Part shown: piece after piece, positions 223-22,012 of the stretch
How positions within the stretch are numbered: the first letter of the stretch is position 1
How the letters are laid out: each line of letters starts with the position of its first letter
Source: a virus
Direction: 5' to 3' (one strand)
Length of the DNA: 26,746 nucleotides
Virus record (IMG/VR): IMGVR_UViG_3300025870_001528
Span: 1-26,746 of that record
Notes under the pieces: generated by a model
What the model was told of the DNA's origin: nothing
Database searches by the model: none
Seen by the model: the letters and a program-made list of their open reading frames with translations, nothing else
Program-made: the position numbers and the translations under genes

Positions 223-2067
223 ATGAGCTTAGAAGATTTCACAGACTACAAACTTCCTAAGAACGCCTATCTTACTTTTGATGCTGATACTCTTAAGAGT
301 CTTATCGTTGAGCGTTTGAATGAAAATGAGACGTTTACAGATCAGAACTTTGAAGGTTCAAACTTTAGTGCATTCATCGATGTAGTAGCGTATATGTATC
401 ATGTATTACTATTTCAGCTCAATACTACATCTAACGAGTCTACCTTTAATACAGCCACTATTTATGAGAACATGAATAAGCTTGTTGGTAATATTGGTTA
501 CAGCCCGCTTGGTGATCAAACATCACTACTTAACTTTAATCTTTCTGCTAGTAATATTACCCCGAATGTATACACAGTACCTAGATTTGCTTCTGTTGGT
601 GTTAATGGTAATAATTATATCTCATTAGAAGATATTACTTTTGAGAAAGTAACCTCTAATACTCTAGAGGCTGTTAGACCATCAAATAATACACTATATC
701 AAGGTGCTCTTCAAGAAGCTTCATTTACAGCAACTGGTGAACCTTATGAGAATATTATTCTTATAGATAGCTTTACTTCAAAGCAGTTTATTCAATCAAC
801 TAATAATCTTAACAACTCTAAGTTTATTAGTGATAATACTTTTAGTGTATTTGTAAAAGATACTGCTACTAATATATGGACACAATGGTCTGAGACAGCT
901 TCTTTATTCTTAGAATCTGCTGAAAATAAGAGATATGAAAAGAGGCTTAATCAATCTGGTAATTACGAGTTTAAATTTGGTAATGATCAGAATGGTAAAA
1001 AGTTAACTGAAAGTGATACAGTTCTTATCTTTTACGTAACTTCAGATAACCAGGCTGGTGAGGCTGGTCCTAATGCACTAGCAGGTGCATCTTTTAATCT
1101 TTATGCTTCTCCTAATTTTACTGCAATTAGTGAAATACTTTATAGTGCGGATGAAAACCTTATTACACCGGCTAATGTAACTAGCTTAACTCTTAATAAC
1201 CCTAATAGAACCTCACCTCCTAAATTAGCTGAGACAGTAGATGATATTAAGAATAGTGCACCGAAAGTATTTGCTTCACAAAATCGACTTGTTACTAAAG
1301 CAGACTATCAATATCAAATTAATAGAAACTTTAACAATATTACTAAAGATGTGCAAGTTTTATCAAATAATGACTTTACATCAAAGGTACTAGCTTACTA
1401 TAATGACAATGGTCTAGCCCAAGGTAATGATGATGCAAGAATGCTCTTCTCACAAGTTCAATTTTCTGCTTCTACATCTTTTAATAATGTATACATCTTT
1501 ACTGTACCTGCAGGTAACCCTACATTAAATGGTTTGACTCCTAACTATCTTAATGCTTCACAAAAACAGCTTATTTCAGACTTTTGCAACAATAAGAAAG
1601 ATATTACACAGAACGTTGTAGTAACAGATGCTTTATTTAAGGCCTTTACTTTTGGTGTATCTCGAGTAGGTGGTTCAAGTGTTACATCTACAGATACAGT
1701 TGATGATATCGTACGAAATAGCTTCTTGAGGATTACTGTTGATAAAAATCAAGCTCTTAATGATAGTGCAATTAAATCAGCAGTTTACAATACGTTTAAT
1801 ACTTACTTCAATAAAGTGCAATTAGGTAGTATTATTGATGTAGCAAGTTTAACTAACGACTTACTCAATATTCAGGGTGTTACAGCATTACACACGGTTA
1901 ACGGTAGTGCAGAGATAGCAAATCTTAGCTTTGTTGTATGGAATCCAGACTATAAAGAATCAGACAGGGGTATACAATCATTAAACTACCAACTTGAAGA
2001 TTTTGAATACGGTTATTTTTATAATGTAGAGAATATTCCTAATAAGGTTGTTATTGAGAGGTTGTAA
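223..2067 (+). CDS. 6: Baseplate wedge protein gp6-like (baseplate J family)
   Basis: This 614-residue protein is close to T4 gp6 (about 660). Gp6 dimers form the inner ring joining the baseplate wedges. The N-terminus reads like gp6 (an LKSLIVERLNEN segment, then SNFSAFIDVVAYMYHVLLFQLN). The central segment VFASQNRLVTKADYQYQI carries the baseplate-J-type pattern NR-VT--DY near residue 355. The C-terminus has a GVTALHTVNG turn followed by WNPDYKESDRG and an aromatic tail, as in gp6 homologues. The upstream partial gene is gp25-like, the expected neighbour. The start at ATG 223 is set by the late-type element ending at 216. A short hairpin with a GTAA loop (2059-2072) overlaps the stop codon but lacks a U-tract. 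Confidence 0.85.
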   Translation: MSLEDFTDYKLPKNAYLTFDADTLKSLIVERLNENETFTDQNFEGSNFSAFIDVVAYMYHVLLFQLNTTSNESTFNTATIYENMNKLVGNIGYSPLGDQTSLLNFNLSASNITPNVYTVPRFASVGVNGNNYISLEDITFEKVTSNTLEAVRPSNNTLYQGALQEASFTATGEPYENIILIDSFTSKQFIQSTNNLNNSKFISDNTFSVFVKDTATNIWTQWSETASLFLESAENKRYEKRLNQSGNYEFKFGNDQNGKKLTESDTVLIFYVTSDNQAGEAGPNALAGASFNLYASPNFTAISEILYSADENLITPANVTSLTLNNPNRTSPPKLAETVDDIKNSAPKVFASQNRLVTKADYQYQINRNFNNITKDVQVLSNNDFTSKVLAYYNDNGLAQGNDDARMLFSQVQFSASTSFNNVYIFTVPAGNPTLNGLTPNYLNASQKQLISDFCNNKKDITQNVVVTDALFKAFTFGVSRVGGSSVTSTDTVDDIVRNSFLRITVDKNQALNDSAIKSAVYNTFNTYFNKVQLGSIIDVASLTNDLLNIQGVTALHTVNGSAEIANLSFVVWNPDYKESDRGIQSLNYQLEDFEYGYFYNVENIPNKVVIERL

Positions 2068-2081
2068 AACCTTGCTCCGTG

Positions 2082-2089
2082 ATTAAATA
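2082..2089 (+). promoter_or_regulatory. Late-type promoter element ATTAAATA before PKD-domain gene
   Basis: ATTAAATA ends seven bases before ATG 2097. The surrounding 16 bases, GATTAAATAAGTGTAT (2081-2096), recur exactly at 16425-16440 in front of another structural gene, which suggests an extended promoter beyond the eight-base core. T4 geometry predicts a start at about 2095. Confidence 0.7.
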
Positions 2090-2096
2090 AGTGTAT

Positions 2097-4331
2097 ATGT
2101 CGCTTAGCTCACTATCATTAGACCAATCAGGGGATTTTGATCTGCTCTACAACTTTTTTTGCACACGCAATTATAAGTTCGAAGAGACTAAAAATGGCTT
2201 TGCATTGCCATTTACACCAATGTACTTTGTTCCAAATATGGAAGATGGTATAGAGGACTTTGTAAGTAATAAAAAAATTGTATGGGATTTTGGAGATTCA
2301 ACAACCAGTGAAGCTATTACAGCATCTCATGCATATAGTAAGCCAGGTAGTTATAAAGTAACCTGCTATCTTTATGATAAAAATGGAGAGGGGTATTATG
2401 ATACTTTTCACTCTGATGTTAATATTAGTGACTTTATTGAAGATACTTTAACTATCTCTGTAACAGGTGATGATTCTGACCATTATCTTAGTGGGGGTAA
2501 TCTATACTATACTACAGGTAAGATAGCAAGTGCTATAACTGTTAATAGATATAACTCCTTTAGATCACTTGAAACTGGACTACCAACTATAGTTCCTTAT
2601 GCTTCAGCAGCTGGGCCAGATCATGATTACTTTGCTCAAGGTTATGATAAATTAACTTACGGTCACTTACATCCTAGTTCTACTTTTGTTCAAATCTTAA
2701 CTTCAAACGGTACAGTTGAAACATTACCAGTAAATGAAGTTGAAACTATTGATACTAATATCTATATCAAATTAAGCAGTGGTGAGGTAGTTTATACAAC
2801 AGCAACAGATCCTGATGCATTCTTCGCAGGATTATCTGGTTACGGTGAATTATACTTTAAGAGTGATTTTGCTGATCGTTACAATCTTATACTAGGCTAT
2901 AAACAAGGAGATATCTTCGAGTATGCTAATACTACAAACTACGGATTATCTGCAGAAATATATGAGAATAATTCTTATAGAGAACTTTCCTTTTCATCAA
3001 ATGGACTTGATGGTGAAGGTGCAGATGTTACAACAGTCTTTGACATAGGTTCAGAAAAATTTGCTGGTACTAAGATTGCATTTGTTGCTAATGTTAAAGA
3101 TGAGGCTGGATTTAATCAACGTAATATGCCATTACTGAGTAGTGCTGTTGGTGGTTATGATTTTGATGTTATATTAACAGATGGTGTTACTGAATATGAT
3201 ATTGAGGTACAGCCATACTTCCAATCTCTCTCATCTTTACTATCAGGTGGCTTCTTTAAAGGCTACTTTGTAAGTAACACTAATACCACTCTTGATAATG
3301 TATTTCTATCAGGCCGTACAATAGTTAATGGTTCATACCAAGTAAGAGGTATAAGTAATACCTTTACTATTAATCCTAGTAGTTATTTTGACATTGCAAA
3401 ACAGAATGAAGATATTGATTTTGAAGAGTCTTTCAAAGAGATAGCAATACAGCCATTATTCTCCGATGCTAGGGTATTGATGAAGGACTTTATTGGCTCT
3501 ATCTTTGGTGATCTTAGCTCTTCTCAAGATTCAGTAGGTAAAGCCACATACGAGAAGATTCAGAACTTCTTCGATAATAATACAGATATTGATACTTGTA
3601 ATATTGACCAGCTTAATGGTTTATTGCAAATGTTTAGCTTACCCGAGCTTAACAAATATTCCTTACCTCCAAAACTTAGTAGATTAGTCAACTTACTGTC
3701 AATTAGTAAGTCAAAGCTATTTGGTGCTCGTAATAGAGATCAATCAACTTACCAGTCATATGGCTATAAGAACAATGCTTTCTATGGTTACAATTTAGGT
3801 GAGAGATTAACTGATAGTAGTATAATAGTTGCTGGTTCAAATATAGTTGCTAACGAGCTATACAGTGGAAAGTATGTAACTTTAAATACTTCACTTCCTA
3901 TTAGTGCTACAAGCTCACCAACAATATCATCCACGGATGGATTTATATACTCAACAGATACTGGTTCTTTACTATCAGCAGACACTTACTTACTTCCAAA
4001 CGTTGCTACTGTTGATGTGTGTGGTAATGCATTAAGTGGTGTCTCTCTTTCTGCTTCAAGTCAATTCTACTCTCTTAGTGATTATAATGATTCGTGGGGG
4101 TGGAATCTACTATCCGGTGCTAGTAGAGGTATAACAGACATTTACTCTTTCTACTATCAAAACAGCTCACTAGGACCTATAGAAGATTCTATTATTAACT
4201 TTAACGATCCTAATAATACACTTTCACATACCCTTACTTCATATACCAACTGGAGTAAGGATAATGGTATAATGTCTAACATCTTTGCTAACTCACTGTA
4301 TGAGGGGTTAGATCTCTTCAATAACGAATAA
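2097..4331 (+). CDS. Virion structural protein with N-terminal PKD-like domain
   Basis: This 744-residue protein is not assigned to a named T4 gene. Residues about 59-113 form a PKD-type immunoglobulin-like domain, with the signature WDFGDS, then ASHAYSKPGSYKVTCYLYD. PKD domains commonly mediate surface or carbohydrate contacts in extracellular and virion proteins. The rest is rich in Ser, Asn, Tyr and Asp with alternating beta patterns, as in phage fibre or baseplate decoration proteins. A GTG at 2091 in the same frame could start the protein. ATG 2097 is preferred because GTG 2091 lies upstream of the predicted transcription start near 2095. The next gene begins 8 nt after the stop without its own late element, so the two are probably co-transcribed. 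Its position after gp6 would suit a gp7-like role, but no sequence motif shows that. Confidence 0.75.
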   Translation: MSLSSLSLDQSGDFDLLYNFFCTRNYKFEETKNGFALPFTPMYFVPNMEDGIEDFVSNKKIVWDFGDSTTSEAITASHAYSKPGSYKVTCYLYDKNGEGYYDTFHSDVNISDFIEDTLTISVTGDDSDHYLSGGNLYYTTGKIASAITVNRYNSFRSLETGLPTIVPYASAAGPDHDYFAQGYDKLTYGHLHPSSTFVQILTSNGTVETLPVNEVETIDTNIYIKLSSGEVVYTTATDPDAFFAGLSGYGELYFKSDFADRYNLILGYKQGDIFEYANTTNYGLSAEIYENNSYRELSFSSNGLDGEGADVTTVFDIGSEKFAGTKIAFVANVKDEAGFNQRNMPLLSSAVGGYDFDVILTDGVTEYDIEVQPYFQSLSSLLSGGFFKGYFVSNTNTTLDNVFLSGRTIVNGSYQVRGISNTFTINPSSYFDIAKQNEDIDFEESFKEIAIQPLFSDARVLMKDFIGSIFGDLSSSQDSVGKATYEKIQNFFDNNTDIDTCNIDQLNGLLQMFSLPELNKYSLPPKLSRLVNLLSISKSKLFGARNRDQSTYQSYGYKNNAFYGYNLGERLTDSSIIVAGSNIVANELYSGKYVTLNTSLPISATSSPTISSTDGFIYSTDTGSLLSADTYLLPNVATVDVCGNALSGVSLSASSQFYSLSDYNDSWGWNLLSGASRGITDIYSFYYQNSSLGPIEDSIINFNDPNNTLSHTLTSYTNWSKDNGIMSNIFANSLYEGLDLFNNE

Positions 4332-13750: not shown

Positions 13751-14767
13751 ATGCCTGATATCGAAATCGTCAAACTCAAAATAAGGAGAGGAACAGACTC
13801 TCAACGTAAGCAAGTTGCTCTAGAGCAAGGTGAGCTCGGTTATACTACCGATACAAAGCGCACTTTTATTGGTGATGGAGCTACTCTAGGTGGTGCACCT
13901 GCGGGTAATATTATACATGCACCGTTAAGTATTAATACTCGTACTAACTTAAATACGGCTGTTAAAGGTGATTTGGTATATGAAGATAATTTACTTTATC
14001 AATTGTCTGGAACTGATTATGCAACGTTATCTAGCTGGGCATTTATTGGATCAAGACCAGATGATTTAAATCTTCAATATAATGCAAGTAATGAGTTATC
14101 AATTAAACCAGGTTCAGTTAGTATTTCTTCTTTAAGTGGTGATGTTACTAAAGATAAAGGTGGATTACTTTATACTCCAGATGGTCTTTCAGCTAATGTA
14201 GATCAATCAACTATTACAGTAGATTCAATAACAGGAGCTCTTTCAGTAATTGGTGGAACAGTAACATCTACAGTATTAGGTAATGGTTTATGTGGTGGTA
14301 GTGGTTCAAATATTGAAATTGACGCTACTTCAACTTTCTGCTTCCCAGCAGGTCAATTACAAATTAATACATTGCCTACACAATCAGTTCAAGCTGATGC
14401 TCTTTGTACATCTAGTGTTGGTGCAACTCTAAATGTTTCAGGTAACGTTCTTAACCAAGCTACAGTTGGAGCAAACACTGCTCAGCCATTTAATCAATCT
14501 GTAATTGATCAGTATGGTCGTGTGACATCTTCTTCAACAACAATTGAACAGAATCTCTCTGGAACTGATACATCTGGTAATGGTCAAATCTTCTTCGGTT
14601 CACTTAATGAAGAGAATCCAGGTGCTACAGGTGAGACAGTTATTAATGCATTATCAGCTAATAGTGATCGATCAGCTTCTGTTGCAATTGCTCTTTCATC
14701 TGCTGGTTTCATTCAGATAGCTTCTGGCGATCAAGGTAACTTCGCAATCCCAATCTTCAAATTCTAA
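13751..14767 (+). CDS. Tail fibre protein with Mtd-type N-terminal attachment motif
   Basis: In this 338-residue protein, residues about 8-45 carry VKLKIRRGTDSQRKQVALEQ followed by GELGYTTDTKRTFIGDG. This is the short N-terminal motif seen in many phage fibres and in the phage tropism determinant (Mtd) family, thought to attach the fibre to the virion. The next gene has a related motif. The middle and C-terminus are Ser/Thr/Gly-rich with beta-helix-like character, plus several Cys (LCGGSG, TFCFPAG, ALCTSS). The end GDQGNFAIPIFKF is hydrophobic and could be the trimerisation tip. No collar or enzymatic domain is visible. There is no late element and no Shine-Dalgarno, so it is likely co-transcribed from the start near 13129. 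Confidence 0.75.
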   Translation: MPDIEIVKLKIRRGTDSQRKQVALEQGELGYTTDTKRTFIGDGATLGGAPAGNIIHAPLSINTRTNLNTAVKGDLVYEDNLLYQLSGTDYATLSSWAFIGSRPDDLNLQYNASNELSIKPGSVSISSLSGDVTKDKGGLLYTPDGLSANVDQSTITVDSITGALSVIGGTVTSTVLGNGLCGGSGSNIEIDATSTFCFPAGQLQINTLPTQSVQADALCTSSVGATLNVSGNVLNQATVGANTAQPFNQSVIDQYGRVTSSSTTIEQNLSGTDTSGNGQIFFGSLNEENPGATGETVINALSANSDRSASVAIALSSAGFIQIASGDQGNFAIPIFKF

Positions 14768-14772
14768 AAATC

Positions 14773-16389
14773 ATGGCAAAGAAAATCGAAATACTCGAAA
14801 ATACTCTTCTTAAACTAATTGTTCGTCAAGGAACAAATGATGACCGAGCTTTAGTCACCTTATCAGAGGGTGAATTAGGTTATACTACAGACTGGCATCG
14901 GCTATACGTAGGAGATAGTCAAACACAAGGAGGTCATGTTGTAGGTAATTTGTATAAAGGTGCTGTTGCAGATCATACATCACTTACTACGGAGATAGAA
15001 AATGGTGATTATGTCTTTAACACAACAAATAACACATTATTCATTAAGAATAGTACTGCTGCCGGTTGGCTTTCAGCTGCTCGTATTTTAGAGGCTGCAG
15101 ATGGTACAATAACAATTGATGATAGTGCAGGTACTATTGCTGTAGGTACTTTATCTGCTGGGGACTTCCATGCTGATGCCCTTGGTAATTCTATCGAGCT
15201 TGTTGGTGGTAGAATTTCATTGAGTGCAGGTCAAATTAAGACTGATATCATTAATACAGACTCTGCTACACACCTTTCACTTCCACAGAAGCTTAAAATT
15301 AATGCTGTTAATTATGATTTCCCAGTAGGTGGTCTTGCTAATAATGCTTTTTTAGGAACAGATAGTAGTGGTAGACTTAGTTGGTCAGCACCATTAAATA
15401 CTGCCTCTCTATACTTTAACTCTTCTGCAGCTATTCCTATTGGTACAGTAGTGGCAGCTGCAAGTGGCGCTACAATACCTGTTGGGTGGCTTAAGTGTGA
15501 TGGACAGTTAATTGCAGGTGCAGATTATCCAGATCTTTCTGCTGCTATTGGTTCACAATACGGTGGTGGCGCTGTTAACTTCAGGGTTCCAGACTATACA
15601 GATGTAGTTCATGTAGGTACAGATGAACCAATACAATTTACTAATAGTACTCTTACAAGTACTGGTTCTGCTACTTATACAACCAAGGGTGTAGTATATA
15701 TTATTAAATCACTTGCTGATACTATCACTACATCAAGTGTTACCTTCGGTGGAGGACTAACTGCTCAAAAAGCAGGGGTAGATTTTACTGATACACCAGT
15801 ATCCGTGTTTGATAGTGATGTAAAGGTAGGATTACCTATACCTGGTATAGAAACCTTTACTGCTTCTACAGCACTATCTACTAGTGGACGAACAACATTT
15901 ACAACTAAAGCTGAATATACAAAAGTATGGGTAACAGGATCAGGTGCTAAAGGTGGAAACCGCACTGGTGGTGCTGCTGCTACTTCTTATGCTATACTTT
16001 CTGCTCCTATTGGTACTGCATTTGACGTGTATGTAGCAGCAGGACAGACTACTATACAATCTGATGGATTGCCAAGCAAGATTGCAATAGGTGGTGGTGG
16101 AGCAGATTTAGTTGTTAGTGATGGTGCAGACTATTATGAGTCTGGTACTACTCCTCCTAATGATAGATCTGTTAACAGTGGTACTATTGCAACTAGTAAT
16201 TATATCGTAGGTGGTTACATTATACCTGGTGGTCGTGGTGGTTGGAGAACAGTTAATAACGATGAGGAAGTTGGTGCTACAGCTTCATACTGGGGCGCAG
16301 ATAATGTTCCTGGTGCTGGATCAGGTGCATTTAATGAAGCTACAATTGATACTGTTGATGGTCTGGTAAAGTTTGAGTGGGGAATGTAA
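14773..16389 (+). CDS. Tail fibre protein: Mtd-type N-terminus, tail collar domain, glycine-rich C-terminal tip
   Basis: This 538-residue protein shows four parts. Residues about 12-50 (KLIVRQGTNDDRALVTLSEG, then ELGYTTDWHRLYVGDS) match the attachment motif of the previous gene. A beta-rich shaft follows. Residues about 220-285 are a phage tail collar domain: IPIGTVVAAASGATIPVGW, LKCDGQLIAGADYPDL, IGSQYGGGAVNFRVPDY. The C-terminal 150 residues form a glycine-rich tip (YTKVWVTGSGAKGG, YVAAGQT, IAIGGGGADLVVSDGADY, GGYIIPGGRGGW, ending VDGLVKFEW). Glycine-rich tips of this kind are often the variable host-recognition part of T-even-type adhesins. It begins 5 nt after the preceding stop, so it belongs to the same transcript. 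Confidence 0.82.
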   Translation: MAKKIEILENTLLKLIVRQGTNDDRALVTLSEGELGYTTDWHRLYVGDSQTQGGHVVGNLYKGAVADHTSLTTEIENGDYVFNTTNNTLFIKNSTAAGWLSAARILEAADGTITIDDSAGTIAVGTLSAGDFHADALGNSIELVGGRISLSAGQIKTDIINTDSATHLSLPQKLKINAVNYDFPVGGLANNAFLGTDSSGRLSWSAPLNTASLYFNSSAAIPIGTVVAAASGATIPVGWLKCDGQLIAGADYPDLSAAIGSQYGGGAVNFRVPDYTDVVHVGTDEPIQFTNSTLTSTGSATYTTKGVVYIIKSLADTITTSSVTFGGGLTAQKAGVDFTDTPVSVFDSDVKVGLPIPGIETFTASTALSTSGRTTFTTKAEYTKVWVTGSGAKGGNRTGGAAATSYAILSAPIGTAFDVYVAAGQTTIQSDGLPSKIAIGGGGADLVVSDGADYYESGTTPPNDRSVNSGTIATSNYIVGGYIIPGGRGGWRTVNNDEEVGATASYWGADNVPGAGSGAFNEATIDTVDGLVKFEWGM

Positions 16390-16438: not shown

Positions 16439-17818
16439 ATGGTATATCCAAGTGACCTTCCACTTTCTGCTACTTCTGTAGCTGTATTCGAGGATGGGCT
16501 ATCTCCAGAGTATGACATTACATGGTCTTTCACCTATCAGTTAACTAACTATGATGTTACAGATGAGTTTGGCTTCAATATGTTTTTGCAAGATGCAAGT
16601 TACAGTCTTTCTGGTGGTGGTGTTGGTTTAGATCTTGGATATAGTGGTGGTACAGTATTTGCACCTACTTCAGCTCAAGGTATGAATGGTGGTGTTATTG
16701 GTATTGGTATTGATTCACTCGGTGTCTTTGCTGCTAATACCGAATACATTGATTCTTCTTTAAGAGACGGTCTTAGTGCTGGTCTTTCTGCAAATAGCAT
16801 TACTGTAAGAGGTTCAGGTTTATCAGGTGAACGATATGACTTTATAACTACTGCAGTAATTAGTGCATTTGACATTAAGAGTGATGGTCCAAAGACTTTG
16901 AGAGCAGGTCTTGGTAACTATGGTCGGAAATTACGTGTTGATTACAAAGCAGAAGCAGATACTTTCTACACTAATATATTAGACGTAGATATACCTAAGG
17001 TTGAATACTTCGAAGGTGGTACATTTAGACCAGGAGTTACTATTATTAAACCTTTAACATCTAATAATACTAACGGTGATGTTATTATTACAAATTTTCA
17101 CGTTGAAGGTAACACAGATGCTACAACAACATCTACTATAAGTTCAACACCAATGGTTCCATTTGAACCAGATTACAATTCACTTGGAGATACCCCACAA
17201 CTACCACCAGATGCTGAAGCTCCACAACGTTTACCATTTTTAGGTATAGAGCCTGCAATAGGTTGTCCAGATGTTTATTGTGGTTTAAGTGCCACTGGTG
17301 GTCTTAGTGATAGTGGTACTGTTATTAGCAACAGTTATTATCCTAATACATTTCTCTATAGTATATCTGCATTTATTGGTGATGTAGAAGTACAATGGGC
17401 TTCAGCAAGTAACCCATATAGGTTTATCTATGAATATGATGGTGAGACAAAGATAGATACAGGATTTGTTGGTAGTAGAATCTTTAATTATGGTGGAACA
17501 TCACGACAGACTTTTAGAACTGCTTATGATAATTCAAATAAGATTAATCAAATACCAGATGCTTTTGAAATAGCAGCTCCAGATGGTTATCCTTTTGTAC
17601 GTGATTCTCTTTCTGCTAGTCTTAGTAGCTTCTATAAAGATACAGATAAGTCTAGACTTACTGTTAGTGTGTATGCACCACTATCAACCTCTGATTGGGT
17701 AACATTAGTTGGTTGCCCCTACTACACTCTATCTTGCGGTACTGAAGATAGTTACCTGTGTGGTTTAACTCGACAACATGAAGCATTACGTAAGGTTGTC
17801 TTTCCAAACATTGTATAA
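16439..17818 (+). CDS. Virion structural protein with a C-terminal domain shared with the downstream protease-fibre protein
   Basis: This 459-residue protein has no recognised family. The N-terminal region is beta-rich (LPLSATSVAVFEDGLSPEY, Gly-rich GGGVGLDLGYSGGT). Residues about 325-436 form a distinct module: PYRFIYEYDGETKIDTGFVG, then FNYGGTSRQTF, PDGYPFVRDSLSASL, a beta-segment LTVSVYAPLSTSDWVTLVG and a closing CPYYTLSC. A clearly related module lies in the next gene (residues 549-661). The Cys-containing segment GCPDVYCGLS precedes it. The window gives no sign of enzymatic function. Adjacent genes sharing the module suggest a docking or stalk domain that joins the two products or binds the same partner. 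The next gene begins 3 nt after the stop. Confidence 0.7.
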   Translation: MVYPSDLPLSATSVAVFEDGLSPEYDITWSFTYQLTNYDVTDEFGFNMFLQDASYSLSGGGVGLDLGYSGGTVFAPTSAQGMNGGVIGIGIDSLGVFAANTEYIDSSLRDGLSAGLSANSITVRGSGLSGERYDFITTAVISAFDIKSDGPKTLRAGLGNYGRKLRVDYKAEADTFYTNILDVDIPKVEYFEGGTFRPGVTIIKPLTSNNTNGDVIITNFHVEGNTDATTTSTISSTPMVPFEPDYNSLGDTPQLPPDAEAPQRLPFLGIEPAIGCPDVYCGLSATGGLSDSGTVISNSYYPNTFLYSISAFIGDVEVQWASASNPYRFIYEYDGETKIDTGFVGSRIFNYGGTSRQTFRTAYDNSNKINQIPDAFEIAAPDGYPFVRDSLSASLSSFYKDTDKSRLTVSVYAPLSTSDWVTLVGCPYYTLSCGTEDSYLCGLTRQHEALRKVVFPNIV

Positions 17819-17821
17819 AAA

Positions 17822-20800
17822 ATGAGCTCAAACACTCCAACTCCGACACCTCCAACTTCTTTAACACCGAGTTCGACACCAACTTCAACTCCGTTGCCAG
17901 CTGGTTCATTAGATTATGGTGTTATAGGTGATGATATTTCTGTTGGTAGCAACATTATGTATCGTGGTGCTGTTAAAGGTAATGATGGTTTGTTATACTT
18001 AATACCTTATGATTCTGATAATGTTACAGTAACAGATCTTTCAGATGAGTCTCAAGTTCAATACGATATTACAAGTCTTGACAACTCTACATTTAAAAAG
18101 TATGTTGGTGGTGCTATAGCACCAAATGGTAAAATTTATGCAGGTCCACATAATGCTTCAGCACCGTTGATTATTGATACTACTCAAGATCCTCCTACCT
18201 TTGCTGAAGTAACTGGTTACACTCCAGGGTATAATCTTCAATGTCGTGGTCCTGCATATTATAACAATAGAGTCTATATACCTTCTTATACCGGTGGTTC
18301 AATATGGGCAGTTGTTAATACAGATACAGATAGTAAGGAAGCAAGTATTGTTTGGGCTACTCCACCGAGGACAGATGCTATCTATACAACAAGGACATCT
18401 TATGCTACCGAAGCTGGTGGTACTGCTCTTAAGTTCTACGATGCATTATTAGGTGGTGTTGCAGGTAATAATGGTAAGATTTATGGTATGCCATATGGTG
18501 CCTCCCGTATCAATATTGTTGACACCTCTACTGGTGTTTCAACATGGGGAAGTGATTACATTACAGGTAACGCACCTATTGACAATGATTCTTTTAACTA
18601 TACAATGCTTTTAAAGAAGACATACTTTAATAAGTATGCATATGGTGCATTGGCTGGTAATGGATGTATTTATGCGCACGGTAGTAGAGCACGTTCTATT
18701 CTTAAAATAGATACTTCAGATGATTCAGCAACTGAGATTCCATATCCACAAACTATTATTGACGCAATGCTTGATGGTGGGTTAGAATCAGATGCAGATA
18801 CAGAAAATGCTGCTGCTTTCGGTTCAGTACTAGGTGGTGATGGTAAGGTATACTCTACTCCTTGGAATATTCCTTATCTTATCTGGATTGATCCTACAGA
18901 TGACTCTATCGGTTTTGAGGATATTTCAACTGTGCTTGCACTTTCTGCTTCTGGAGCATCAACTGGTTGGTATACATTAGGTACTTCAATTGGTAATGAT
19001 ATATACCTTTCACCGGGTGCTGCTGATAGAATTCTTGAAATTGAACTAGCAGGAGTATCTGCTTCACCAACACCTACCCCAACACCAAGTACTACACCTT
19101 CTTCAAGCTTTGTAGCTACACCAACACCAAGTACTACGAGATCTGCAACCCCTACTGCAAGTAACTCGAACACTCCAACACCTAGCACATCACTTTCTAA
19201 TACACCAACCCCTTCTACTACTCCGAGTTCAACACCAACTCCAACACCTACTAATACACCAACACAAACACCTAGTAATACTCCTTCAATAAGTGTTACT
19301 CCTAGTGATACACCAAGCCCATCTACATCAAACTCACCTTCAACAAGTGTTACACCAAGTGTATCAAGGTCAGTTAGTACTACACCAAGCAACACTCCAA
19401 GTGGAACACCATCACCATCTGTTACCCCCTCACCTTCTGTTACTCCTTCTAACTTGTTTACAAGGTGCATTACACTTAACTATAGAACAAAAGATGGTCC
19501 AGATAGATTTATTGTAACATATAAAGGAGCAGTTGTAATTGATACTGGTTTTGTTGGTCATAGTAAATTTGACTATAATGGTTCACAAAGACATGTCTTT
19601 ACAAATGCTATTGATAAAGAGAAGACTGATATAAGTGGTACTACTCTTGCAGATGATGGTTATCCTGTAGTCAGTTCAACTCTCTCAGGTAGTACTACTC
19701 ACTCTGTACCACGCTTTAATCAAGATGAGGCATTTATGACTATTCAAAGCCCAGTTAATGATAAACCAACCTGGACTTACACTCTCAACTGCCCAGTTAT
19801 TTGTAGCCCTACACCAAGTCCTACACCAAGTACTACACCATCCCCTTCTGAATCAGGTGCTCCATTTGTTACCCCTTCAGTATCGATGTCTAATAGTAAG
19901 TTGCCTACTCCTACACCAGAGCTACCTACTCCTACACAAATAACACCTACCCCACCTGTATATTCTCCTCCACCAGTATATTCTCCTCCACCAGAATCAC
20001 CACCGTGGGAAACTCCAGAAATCTTTCCATCCCCAGACCCAGTACCATCACCTGAACCGTCACCGGATCCAATACCCTCAGATGAATCACCAGAACCTGG
20101 TGAACCACCAATTTATAATTCACCGGAAATTCAGACACCTACTGCTACCCCACCAACACCAACACCTACACCGGTACCAGAACCCGGAGAGCCAACACCT
20201 ACCCCAGTGCCAATAACTCCAACCCCGGATCTTATAACAGAAACACCTATACCAGCACCACCGGTATATTCTCCTCCGTCTCCGGAACCATCTCCAGAAC
20301 CATCTCCATCTCCAGATCCAGGTACAGATGATATGTTAACTATTCTTAAGAGCAATATTAATTCATTGCTAGGTGCTTATAACCCTCTTACAGATATTGA
20401 TATATTTAGTAACTATACTTCACAAGAAAATTTAACACGTAATACAGGTAACCCATTTCATGGTATCTTTGGTAGTACCGGTATAGTTGCTTGGAATAGT
20501 AGAATAAATGAAGGAGGTGGTACACAACTCGGAGGTGTTGCAATTACCCCACAGCATATCTTATATACAAAGCATGCTAATTACCAAGCTGGTAATGAAG
20601 TGGTCTTTGTTGATCGAAGCAATAATCAATATGTAAGAGAAATTGAAGGGACTATGGATTTCCCAGGTTCTAGTAATAATGAAGGTGATTTTGGTGTTGC
20701 ACTTTTAGATTCAGCATTACCTGCAGCTATTGAACCAGTTAAGATGTTACCAGCAGATAGTTATAAATATTTTAATTCAAATTTATTTAGCCCAGCAAGT

Positions 20801-21235
20801 CCAACAGTCTTTTTACCTACTGCAAGTGATTGTCCTTTCTTACGCACTGACCAAGAAGAAAAATCATTAGCTGGTTCAGTATCAAGAATTTTCTTTAGTA
20901 GTTTTACTGATAGTGATCCTAATAATTATCACGGTGATCAGAAGCCTATTTTTGAGATGCGTACAAGTAGTACACCAGAACCATACTTATCTTGGTATGA
21001 ACTACCTGTTGGTGGTGATTCAGGTAGTCCAATGTTCTTTTTACTTAATAATGAATTGGTGTTTGTTGGATTAGTCAATTCTAACTCAACAGGATCATTC
21101 TTCGGTCAAGCTCGTAACCGTAATGCAGTTAATCGTATGATACTTGATGCAGAAAGCTCTGCAGGTTTCTATCCAACAGGACTCACTCCTACAGATACTA
21201 CCCTTATAGGTAACTTTAAAGATTATACTGAATAA
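17822..21235 (+). CDS. Modular tail-associated protein: seven-repeat beta-propeller, PTS-rich stalks, shared domain, trypsin-like serine protease
   Basis: The protein has 1137 residues. After a Thr/Pro-rich start (1-28), residues about 28-412 contain seven repeats of G-x(4-6)-G-(K/L)-(I/V/L)-Y followed by ID(T)-type strands, at residues 49, 97, 143, 212, 275, 334 and 387. This fits a seven-bladed propeller. A Pro/Thr/Ser stalk spans 414-543. Residues 549-661 match the C-terminal module of the preceding gene. A second Pro-rich stalk (662-835) contains two PVYSPPP units. Residues about 837-1137 form a chymotrypsin-type domain with candidate triad H918 (TKHAN), D956 (GDFGVALLD) and S1067 (GGDSGSP). 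No signal peptide is seen, so it is probably a virion fibre or decoration acting on the host surface, or a self-processing fibre. It ends before a strong terminator. Confidence 0.78.
19062..19452 (+). repeat. Pro/Thr/Ser-coding low-complexity tract 1 (stalk)
   Basis: About 130 codons are almost entirely Pro, Thr and Ser, in irregular TPTPS-, TPSTTPS- and SVTPS-type units. At DNA level, ACACC, CCAAC, AGTACTACA and similar words recur in varied order. It encodes the stalk between the propeller and the shared module of the 1137-residue protein. Such tracts can change length by slippage or recombination. Its complement is open as a long false antisense frame. Confidence 0.85.
19806..20327 (+). 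repeat. Pro-rich low-complexity tract 2 (stalk)
   Basis: About 174 codons are dominated by Pro with Thr, Ser and Glu, including two consecutive PVYSPPP units, a third PVYSPP near the end, and PEPSP/PTPTP runs. Compared with tract 1 it is richer in Pro and Glu, and therefore more rigid and acidic. It separates the shared module from the protease domain. Confidence 0.85.
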
Positions 21236-21267
21236 AAAAAAGCCTAACCAGACGGTTAGGCTTTTTT
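21234..21267. terminator. Bidirectional intrinsic terminator closing the structural module
   Basis: GCCTAACC (21242-21249) pairs with GGTTAGGC (21254-21261) around an AGAC loop. An A-tract precedes the stem and a T-tract follows it, so both strands end in a U-run. On the + strand it lies just after the protease-fibre stop codon. On the - strand it lies 26 nt beyond the stop of the outer-membrane protein gene. Confidence 0.93.
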
Positions 21268-21292
21268 ACTAGTATTGTATTGTTATGTAACT

Positions 21293-22012
21293 TTAGAAGC
21301 TCTTTGAAAAGGAGATTCCTGTAAGTGTCTCATCATCTGAACCAGCATAGATGGTACCAGCTGTATCAGATGCAACATTTACAAATGTAACAAATGGTGT
21401 AAGGGTAATTCCACCAAAGTAATTATAATCATAATCTTTACTAAAGGTTAGTTGAGTGTGAGTAAACTCTGACTCATCAAAGCTATAACCAACTGTTGCA
21501 GTTAGGTCAATATGTACTTGATTGTCAAGTACAAAGGGAAATGGATCAATAGAGCGCTTAGCTGTAAGTTCAAAGTATCCCAACCCATTACCTTCTGTGG
21601 CAAAATATTGTGTACCTGTAATATTAGTATCAAAAAGCTCTTTAGCAAATGAAACACCAATTTCACTAGTTACATCACCAGCAAGATCTGTTCCTCCAGT
21701 ATAGCGCTTATAGGCTACTCCTGCAGTAAACTCACCAACTCCTTCAAAGGAGAAGTCACGAACAAAACCAACTGATAGATTAGTGTTATTAAGCTCAGAG
21801 TTATCAGCATAAGAATAAGAAGCTTCCAATCGCGCAAAGTCAAATTCATAAGCAGTACTTACACCGGTTACTTTATCACTGTCACCAAACTTAGCACCAC
21901 GCCAGACATCTGTATCCCTATAGGTAGAGAATACTTCTAGTGGAAGTGCAGTAACATCTGCAGAGGCAAAACCAACTGCAGCCAACGTTGTTAATATAAT
22001 AGTTTTTAGCAT
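21293..22012 (-). CDS. Phage-encoded outer-membrane beta-barrel protein
   Basis: This 239-residue protein has a clear Sec signal peptide: positively charged start, hydrophobic core and AxA cleavage after A18 (GFASA|DV). The mature part is made of alternating hydrophobic/polar strands rich in Tyr, Phe, Gly and Thr, for example YEFDFARLEASYSYADN, FTAGVAYKRYTGGTDL, VHIDLTATVGYSF and YNYFGGITLTPFVTFV. It ends in Phe (GISFSKSF), the usual C-terminal signal for barrel insertion. The length suits a barrel of about 10-12 strands. I cannot place it in a porin family with certainty. Its likely destination is the host outer membrane during infection, where it might alter permeability, block receptors or act in lysis. 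All three are inference. A late-type element sits 4 nt before the start and a terminator follows the stop. Confidence 0.82.
   Translation of the reverse strand: MLKTIILTTLAAVGFASADVTALPLEVFSTYRDTDVWRGAKFGDSDKVTGVSTAYEFDFARLEASYSYADNSELNNTNLSVGFVRDFSFEGVGEFTAGVAYKRYTGGTDLAGDVTSEIGVSFAKELFDTNITGTQYFATEGNGLGYFELTAKRSIDPFPFVLDNQVHIDLTATVGYSFDESEFTHTQLTFSKDYDYNYFGGITLTPFVTFVNVASDTAGTIYAGSDDETLTGISFSKSF

Follow-up and report, generated by a model that had tools for sequence, protein, structure and literature searches.

The analysed stretch of DNA, hereafter the window, is a 26,746-base virus record from IMG/VR with a GC content of 35%. A gene for a gp6-like baseplate wedge protein lies near its start, and the nearest relatives of this protein are the gp6 proteins of T4-like cyanophages (28–31% identity). 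A 746-aa protein with a PKD domain (2091–4331) adjoins the baseplate wedge gene. On the plus strand, domain matches identified a fibre gene with an Mtd_N domain (13751–14767) and a second fibre gene with Mtd_N and tail-collar domains (14773–16389), and these are followed by the gene of a 459-aa fibre-cluster protein (16439–17818), whose homologue in the related record L010 carries a protease fused at its N-terminus. The ORF under study encodes a fibre protein of 1137 aa from an ATG start at 17822–21235 of the plus strand. It is the last gene of the rightward cluster and is followed by a GC-rich hairpin, GCCTAACC-AGAC-GGTTAGGC with a T run, recognised by sequence at 21240–21267, and then by a convergent gene. 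The hairpin was absent from the listing of the consensus scan; it is likely a bidirectional terminator that closes the cluster. A sequence-only reading had placed the protein at the end of the fibre cluster of a T4-type phage, and the gene order, the gp6-like protein, and the two Mtd_N fibre genes agree with this placement. The ORF lies within a fibre/baseplate gene cluster, and the predicted link of the protein to the virion is well supported by this gene context.

The convergent gene (21293–22012, minus strand) encodes a protein of 239 aa that is β-barrel-like in sequence and whose N-terminus is signal-like. Relatives of this protein were found in L003 (10964–11683), L010 (12505–13254), and L102 (372–1124, together with the protease). 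Encoded next to a surface protease, such an outer-membrane-type phage protein could play a part in superinfection exclusion.

The domain order of the 1137-aa protein is a Pro/Thr/Ser tail, a propeller, a first stalk, a 116-aa module, a second stalk, and a trypsin-like protease. The N-terminal tail (residues 1–27; 17822–17902) consists of Pro, Thr, and Ser to 81%, and a signal-peptide-like sequence was looked for at the N-terminus and not seen. Residues 28–412 (17903–19057) were assigned to a seven-bladed β-propeller on the basis of the AlphaFold (AF2) model m8e714b566a06, Foldseek, and seven sequence repeats, which start at approximately residues 48, 96, 142, 211, 274, 334, and 385. The model of residues 26–661 showed the β-propeller with mostly confident prediction over approximately the first 385 residues, and the closest solved folds were virginiamycin B lyases (target TM 0.81–0.85 in Foldseek), which are seven-bladed propellers. 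Stalk 1 (residues 413–545; 19058–19456) is 79% Pro/Thr/Ser and was disordered in the model (pLDDT approximately 25), and stalk 2 (residues 662–833; 19805–20320) is 66% Pro, Thr, and Ser, with 38% Pro. The length and frame of the ORF, the seven repeats, the two stalks, and the lack of a signal peptide had all been described from the sequence alone and were confirmed here. The module between the stalks (residues 546–661; 19457–19804) had been called novel; it is a real unit but not a unique one, as a paralogous copy with approximately 30% identity forms the end of the protein encoded upstream at 16439–17818. This recurrence indicates that the module is a repeated unit of the fibre cluster.

The C-terminal domain (residues 837–1137; 20330–21232) was not recognised by its sequence alone. 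The whole ORF gave no Pfam match at E≤0.1, the fibre chaperone Peptidase_S74 included, and the protease domain as a single sequence gave nothing trypsin-like in Pfam, including PF00089 (Trypsin), PHROGs, NCBIfam, or PDB sequence searches. No match to PF13365 (Trypsin_2) was found in the window genome, in a search that detected its controls. We gathered relatives for alignments because the single-sequence searches were blind to the domain, and the fold surfaced in the alignment-based searches only. PF00089 matched 5 of 20 and 4 of 27 relatives at E≤0.1 in the two alignments used, and the 20-row and 27-row family profiles matched solved S1-type serine proteases among the PDB matches listed. In the alignment with the plasminogen activator 1a5i, the profile segments lIsprHilfakH, gDiaivlLdsdlp, and GDSGSP fall on its His, Asp, and Ser segments, and all three catalytic residues coincide.

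The AlphaFold model of residues 837–1137, calculated from a 20-row alignment, had a mean pLDDT of 84.5 and a pTM of 0.88. A Foldseek search of the PDB with this model gave 1118 matches at E≤0.001, with a probability of 1.00 and E values down to 1.7e-8; the best 50 of the 1118 were all trypsin/chymotrypsin-type folds, including chymotrypsin, trypsin, and plasminogen activators. The matches also included trypsin-like chains from the Umb1 umbrella particle (8w20). The double β-barrel fold expected of a chymotrypsin-type protease was thus found by model and Foldseek at the level of fold class. The superposition was loose (TM by query 0.35–0.48 and rmsd 6–11 Å in the best 50 of 1118), which supports the fold class rather than its details and indicates that the loops differ greatly from those of known proteases. 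The domain has one cysteine and therefore no internal disulfide. The model and the profile matches support the assignment of residues 837–1137 to a predicted trypsin/chymotrypsin-fold domain (PA clan, S1-like), and the fold proposed by the sequence-only reading withstood the structure prediction.

The putative catalytic triad consists of H918 (20573–20575), D956 (20687–20689), and S1067 (21020–21022), the last within GGDSGSP; the order His-Asp-Ser and the alignment make these residues equivalent to H57, D102, and S195 of chymotrypsin. We scored conservation over 251 columns in 27 diverse relatives with a median pairwise identity of 25%. The His and the Ser were kept in 27/27 and the Asp in 26/27, the sole exception being L047, so that the triad predicted from the sequence is also conserved among the homologues. 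Six columns were fully invariant (H918, G1065, D1066, S1067, G1068, and P1070), which include the GDSG oxyanion loop and the following Pro (each residue 27/27), and D956 stood at 96%. The triad residues are within the ten most conserved of the 251 columns, which indicates that the triad is more than a chance pattern. Six positions ahead of the catalytic Ser, the window protein has Leu, and the family as a whole shows S, D, N, P, L, K, Y, and others. If this residue corresponds to position 189, which is Asp in trypsins proper with their Arg/Lys specificity, an equivalence drawn by sequence only, its variability suggests that substrate preference probably differs among the members.

Approximately 50 loci with the protease domain were found, nearly all in uncultured phages. 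A scan with the pattern GDSGSP...NN was the productive search and gave 35 stretches; a profile built from four rows matched 36 records out of 40, all except the propeller relatives L006–L009, and a later alignment scan confirmed 45 loci. The scan with P0002 and the first alignment scan, with three rows, gave no new loci, and a scan with the pattern HILYxKHAxY returned known loci only. Among 50,697 phage records, MW202510.1 was the sole match, and a pattern-limited scan of 84,980 species genomes gave three loci, all on short MAG contigs. One of these contigs (L143) has phage genes. Another (L144, JAHFMA010000019.1) comes from a Parcubacteria MAG and carries genes for cell division and sugar biosynthesis. 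On it, a protein with Mtd_N and a trypsin-like member of the family, both with signal-like N-termini (1430–3866), sit between an FtsW/RodA-like cell-division gene and sugar-biosynthesis genes; it is possible that a cell uses a phage-type Mtd_N/protease pair here. Within the reach of these scans, the family is mainly one of uncultured phages. No family in PHROGs or NCBIfam recognises the protease domain and Pfam Trypsin barely does, so standard annotation calls these proteins hypothetical. A description of the family was not found in a search of the open-access literature, beyond which most subscription papers lie.

In the relatives, the protease gene as a rule directly adjoins or overlaps the gene before it (for example in L075, 3258/3258; L054, 7605/7605; L137, 5377/5377; and L138, 3267/3267), and Mtd_N was present in 7 of 10 tested neighbours. 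In L137 the protease gene has a baseplate hub gene on one side and a baseplate wedge gene on the other, and in L068 one Mtd_N fibre gene is flanked by two different protease genes. The N-termini of a few relatives (L121, L126, L139, and L144) are signal-like, and these versions may be secreted proteins instead of virion components. Fibre-type and protease genes that start in a signal-peptide-like manner, which is unusual for phage tail proteins, were seen at L121:5383–7934, L126:4576–7406, and L139:3821–8287. The fibre proteins at L006:3330–10379 (2349 aa) and L010:7998–12425 (1475 aa) are mostly Thr/Pro/Ser repeats, and the stalks of the former extend over well more than 1000 residues. At L128:4898–8491, a ribonucleotide-reductase-like gene is apparently split by two intein-like stretches near a protease-bearing protein of 962 aa.

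A quick tree placed the window, L003, L102, L010, and L044 in a supported clade (SH-aLRT 96), within which the position of the protease differs. In the window and L003 it forms the C-terminal part of the propeller protein. In L010 it is the N-terminal part of the 459-aa protein's homologue, and the propeller protein has no protease. In L102 it is free-standing between Pro/Ser tracts, and in L044 it is mid-way in a 581-aa protein. We also considered L044 as a tail-tube protein with an inserted protease and rejected this, as no match of the flanking parts in PHROGs, Pfam, or PDB favoured it. In other members the protease shares a chain with fibronectin III and DUF285 repeats (L045) or with an Ig-like Big_2 domain (L068, a match below the cut-off). 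Judged from its four arrangements within one supported clade, the protease domain is mobile. The sequence-only reading knew of no counterpart of the architecture in T4-type phages; it is not unique, since L003 shares the whole layout, and the protease domain itself is widespread and shuffled in uncultured phages.

The comparison with the sister phage L003 (IMGVR_UViG_3300017751_000066) revealed a sharp change within the gene. Over approximately 2,955 aligned bases (16439–19390), the two sequences differ at 2 positions. From 19391 to 22000 the divergence is 2.5–30% per 200-base bin, with flanks at approximately 0–1%, and it returns to approximately 1% after approximately 22000. This patch spans the end of stalk 1, the module, stalk 2, the protease, and most of the convergent gene; its left edge (approximately 19390) lies inside the repetitive stalk 1 and its right edge near the end of the convergent gene. 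On this comparison, 19391–22000 is a recombination cassette. The dN/dS values against L003, calculated by the Nei-Gojobori method for this one sequence pair, were 0.11 for residues 837–984, which hold H918 and D956, 0.51 for the hypervariable segment (residues 985–1056; 20774–20989), and 0.19 for residues 1057–1137. Such a pattern would be expected of an enzyme whose active site is retained while its surface changes, and fibre tips often show a similar one.

The best explanation of the sequence and model evidence, to which we assign a probability of roughly 0.55, is that the protein is an endopeptidase borne on the fibre, which cleaves proteins of the host surface as the phage adsorbs. In the proposed mechanism, the 1137-aa protein would be built into the tail-fibre assembly, with the propeller and the module as structural or binding units, and the two long Pro/Thr/Ser stalks would keep the protease away from the fibre. 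The C-terminal 300 residues would act as an active serine endopeptidase of the trypsin/chymotrypsin fold on this appendage. At adsorption, the protease may cut a host-surface protein, such as an outer-membrane protein, an S-layer, a pilus, or another coat, and the cleavage would thin the coat, expose the receptor, or let the virion move, as fibre-borne glycan depolymerases do on polysaccharides. Different phages would carry different protease variants, swapped by recombination.

The main rival is a fibre maturation protease, which would cleave its own stalk or a neighbouring fibre protein at assembly and then stay or leave, a role (though not a fold) comparable to that of self-cleaving tail-fibre chaperone domains. 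The usual place of the protease gene right after a fibre gene, often overlapping it, agrees with such a role, for this position codes for fibre chaperones and tip adhesins in known phages; the long disordered stalks would also be easy substrates. However, the domain shifts its place relative to its partners within one clade, the propeller-protein relatives L006–L009 lack it (although their records are fragments), and L068 encodes two distinct copies on either side of a single fibre gene. The S1-region residue is moreover not conserved, whereas a constant specificity would be favoured if all members had the same processing task. Sequence by itself accommodates both of the roles that the sequence-only reading had put forward, surface cutting and maturation; domain mobility, this variable residue, and the recombinational exchange of the protease favour surface cutting, and we regard maturation as unlikely.

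A trypsin fold that serves purely as a binding module, as an adhesin without catalysis, appears less probable again. The invariance of the His, the Ser, and the GDSG.P loop, with the Asp in 26 of 27, was found in very divergent members, and a pure binder would be expected to have lost these residues in some lineages; the fibre-cluster position, the fast variation in part of the domain, and the occurrence of this fold within a large assembly, the Umb1 particle, are the points that speak for it. We give little credence to a post-lysis or soluble enzyme that clears host-surface protein debris or receptors so that the progeny are not trapped. The free-standing version in L102 and the several versions with signal-like N-termini would suit such an enzyme, but here the protease forms one chain with over 800 residues of propeller and stalk scaffold, has no signal peptide, and is encoded at the end of a late structural cluster. 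That GDSGSP is a chance motif in an unrelated fold, as the trypsin-blank single-sequence searches might suggest, is contradicted jointly by the PDB profile matches, the AlphaFold model, Foldseek, and the triad conservation in 27 members, and is hardly believable.

If the surface-cutting endopeptidase is the correct reading, phage fibres could process protein coats (S-layers, outer-membrane proteins, and pili) too, and the family would account for a hidden part of the fibre diversity in uncultured phages. The known virion enzymes that clear the way to the cell mainly degrade glycans or peptidoglycan; the present results suggest that some phages cut proteins, and not sugars alone, on the surface of the attacked cell. 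More tentatively, and at slightly less than even odds in our judgement, the loci may represent an unrecognised class of fibre-borne proteases in uncultured phages, in which a mobile trypsin-fold module is shuffled among fibre-cluster proteins of the propeller, fibronectin, Ig-like, and other kinds as a protein-coat counterpart of the depolymerases, with its specificity diversified by recombination. The family offers a directly testable enzyme.

The window protease shares with the trypsin/chymotrypsin family (PF00089; e.g., the bacterial trypsin 5dk1) the H-D-S order, the His and Asp motifs, the GDSG loop, and the predicted fold. It differs in its identity of approximately 12–16%, in lying below Pfam detection, in its single cysteine, in its fusion to phage fibre modules, and in the Leu six before the Ser, where trypsin has Asp (an equivalence read from the alignment of sequences). 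Fibre-borne depolymerases act on glycans and mostly have β-helix or hydrolase folds, whereas the window domain has a protein-cutting fold; the likeness would lie in the proposed logic of a tail-displayed enzyme that is exchanged between phages as a module. L003 has the whole architecture of the window protein and near-identical DNA up to stalk 1, whereas its protease is 82% identical to that of the window and was exchanged within the divergent patch. The same protease domain with an intact triad is present in UOF78081.1, a "hypothetical protein" of MW202510.1 (Caudoviricetes sp. ct3Et533, Manatee Spring), and its gene overlaps one annotated as "rhamnogalacturonan lyase". In contrast to the window, this phage is a podovirus; its domain is 26% identical to ours, and an unrelated N-terminus of approximately 130 residues replaces the propeller and the stalks. 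Trypsin-like proteases have been annotated in the T4-superfamily phages Rhizobium phage P10VF and Sinorhizobium phage phiM9 (PMC10783043). We considered these proteins as prior art and set them aside, as the profile of the window family finds nothing in either genome at E≤1. The nearest report concerns PA-PP, a protein of a Pseudomonas phage for which digestion of casein and of an outer-membrane porin has been reported and which was assigned as a serine protease from a Mascot match and an assay on casein (PMC6748951). PA-PP is likened to the window protease by its described activity, not by sequence, and provides a precedent for a phage protein that digests a porin. Compared with these systems, the window protease is a known fold in a new family and in a new setting, the fibre cluster.
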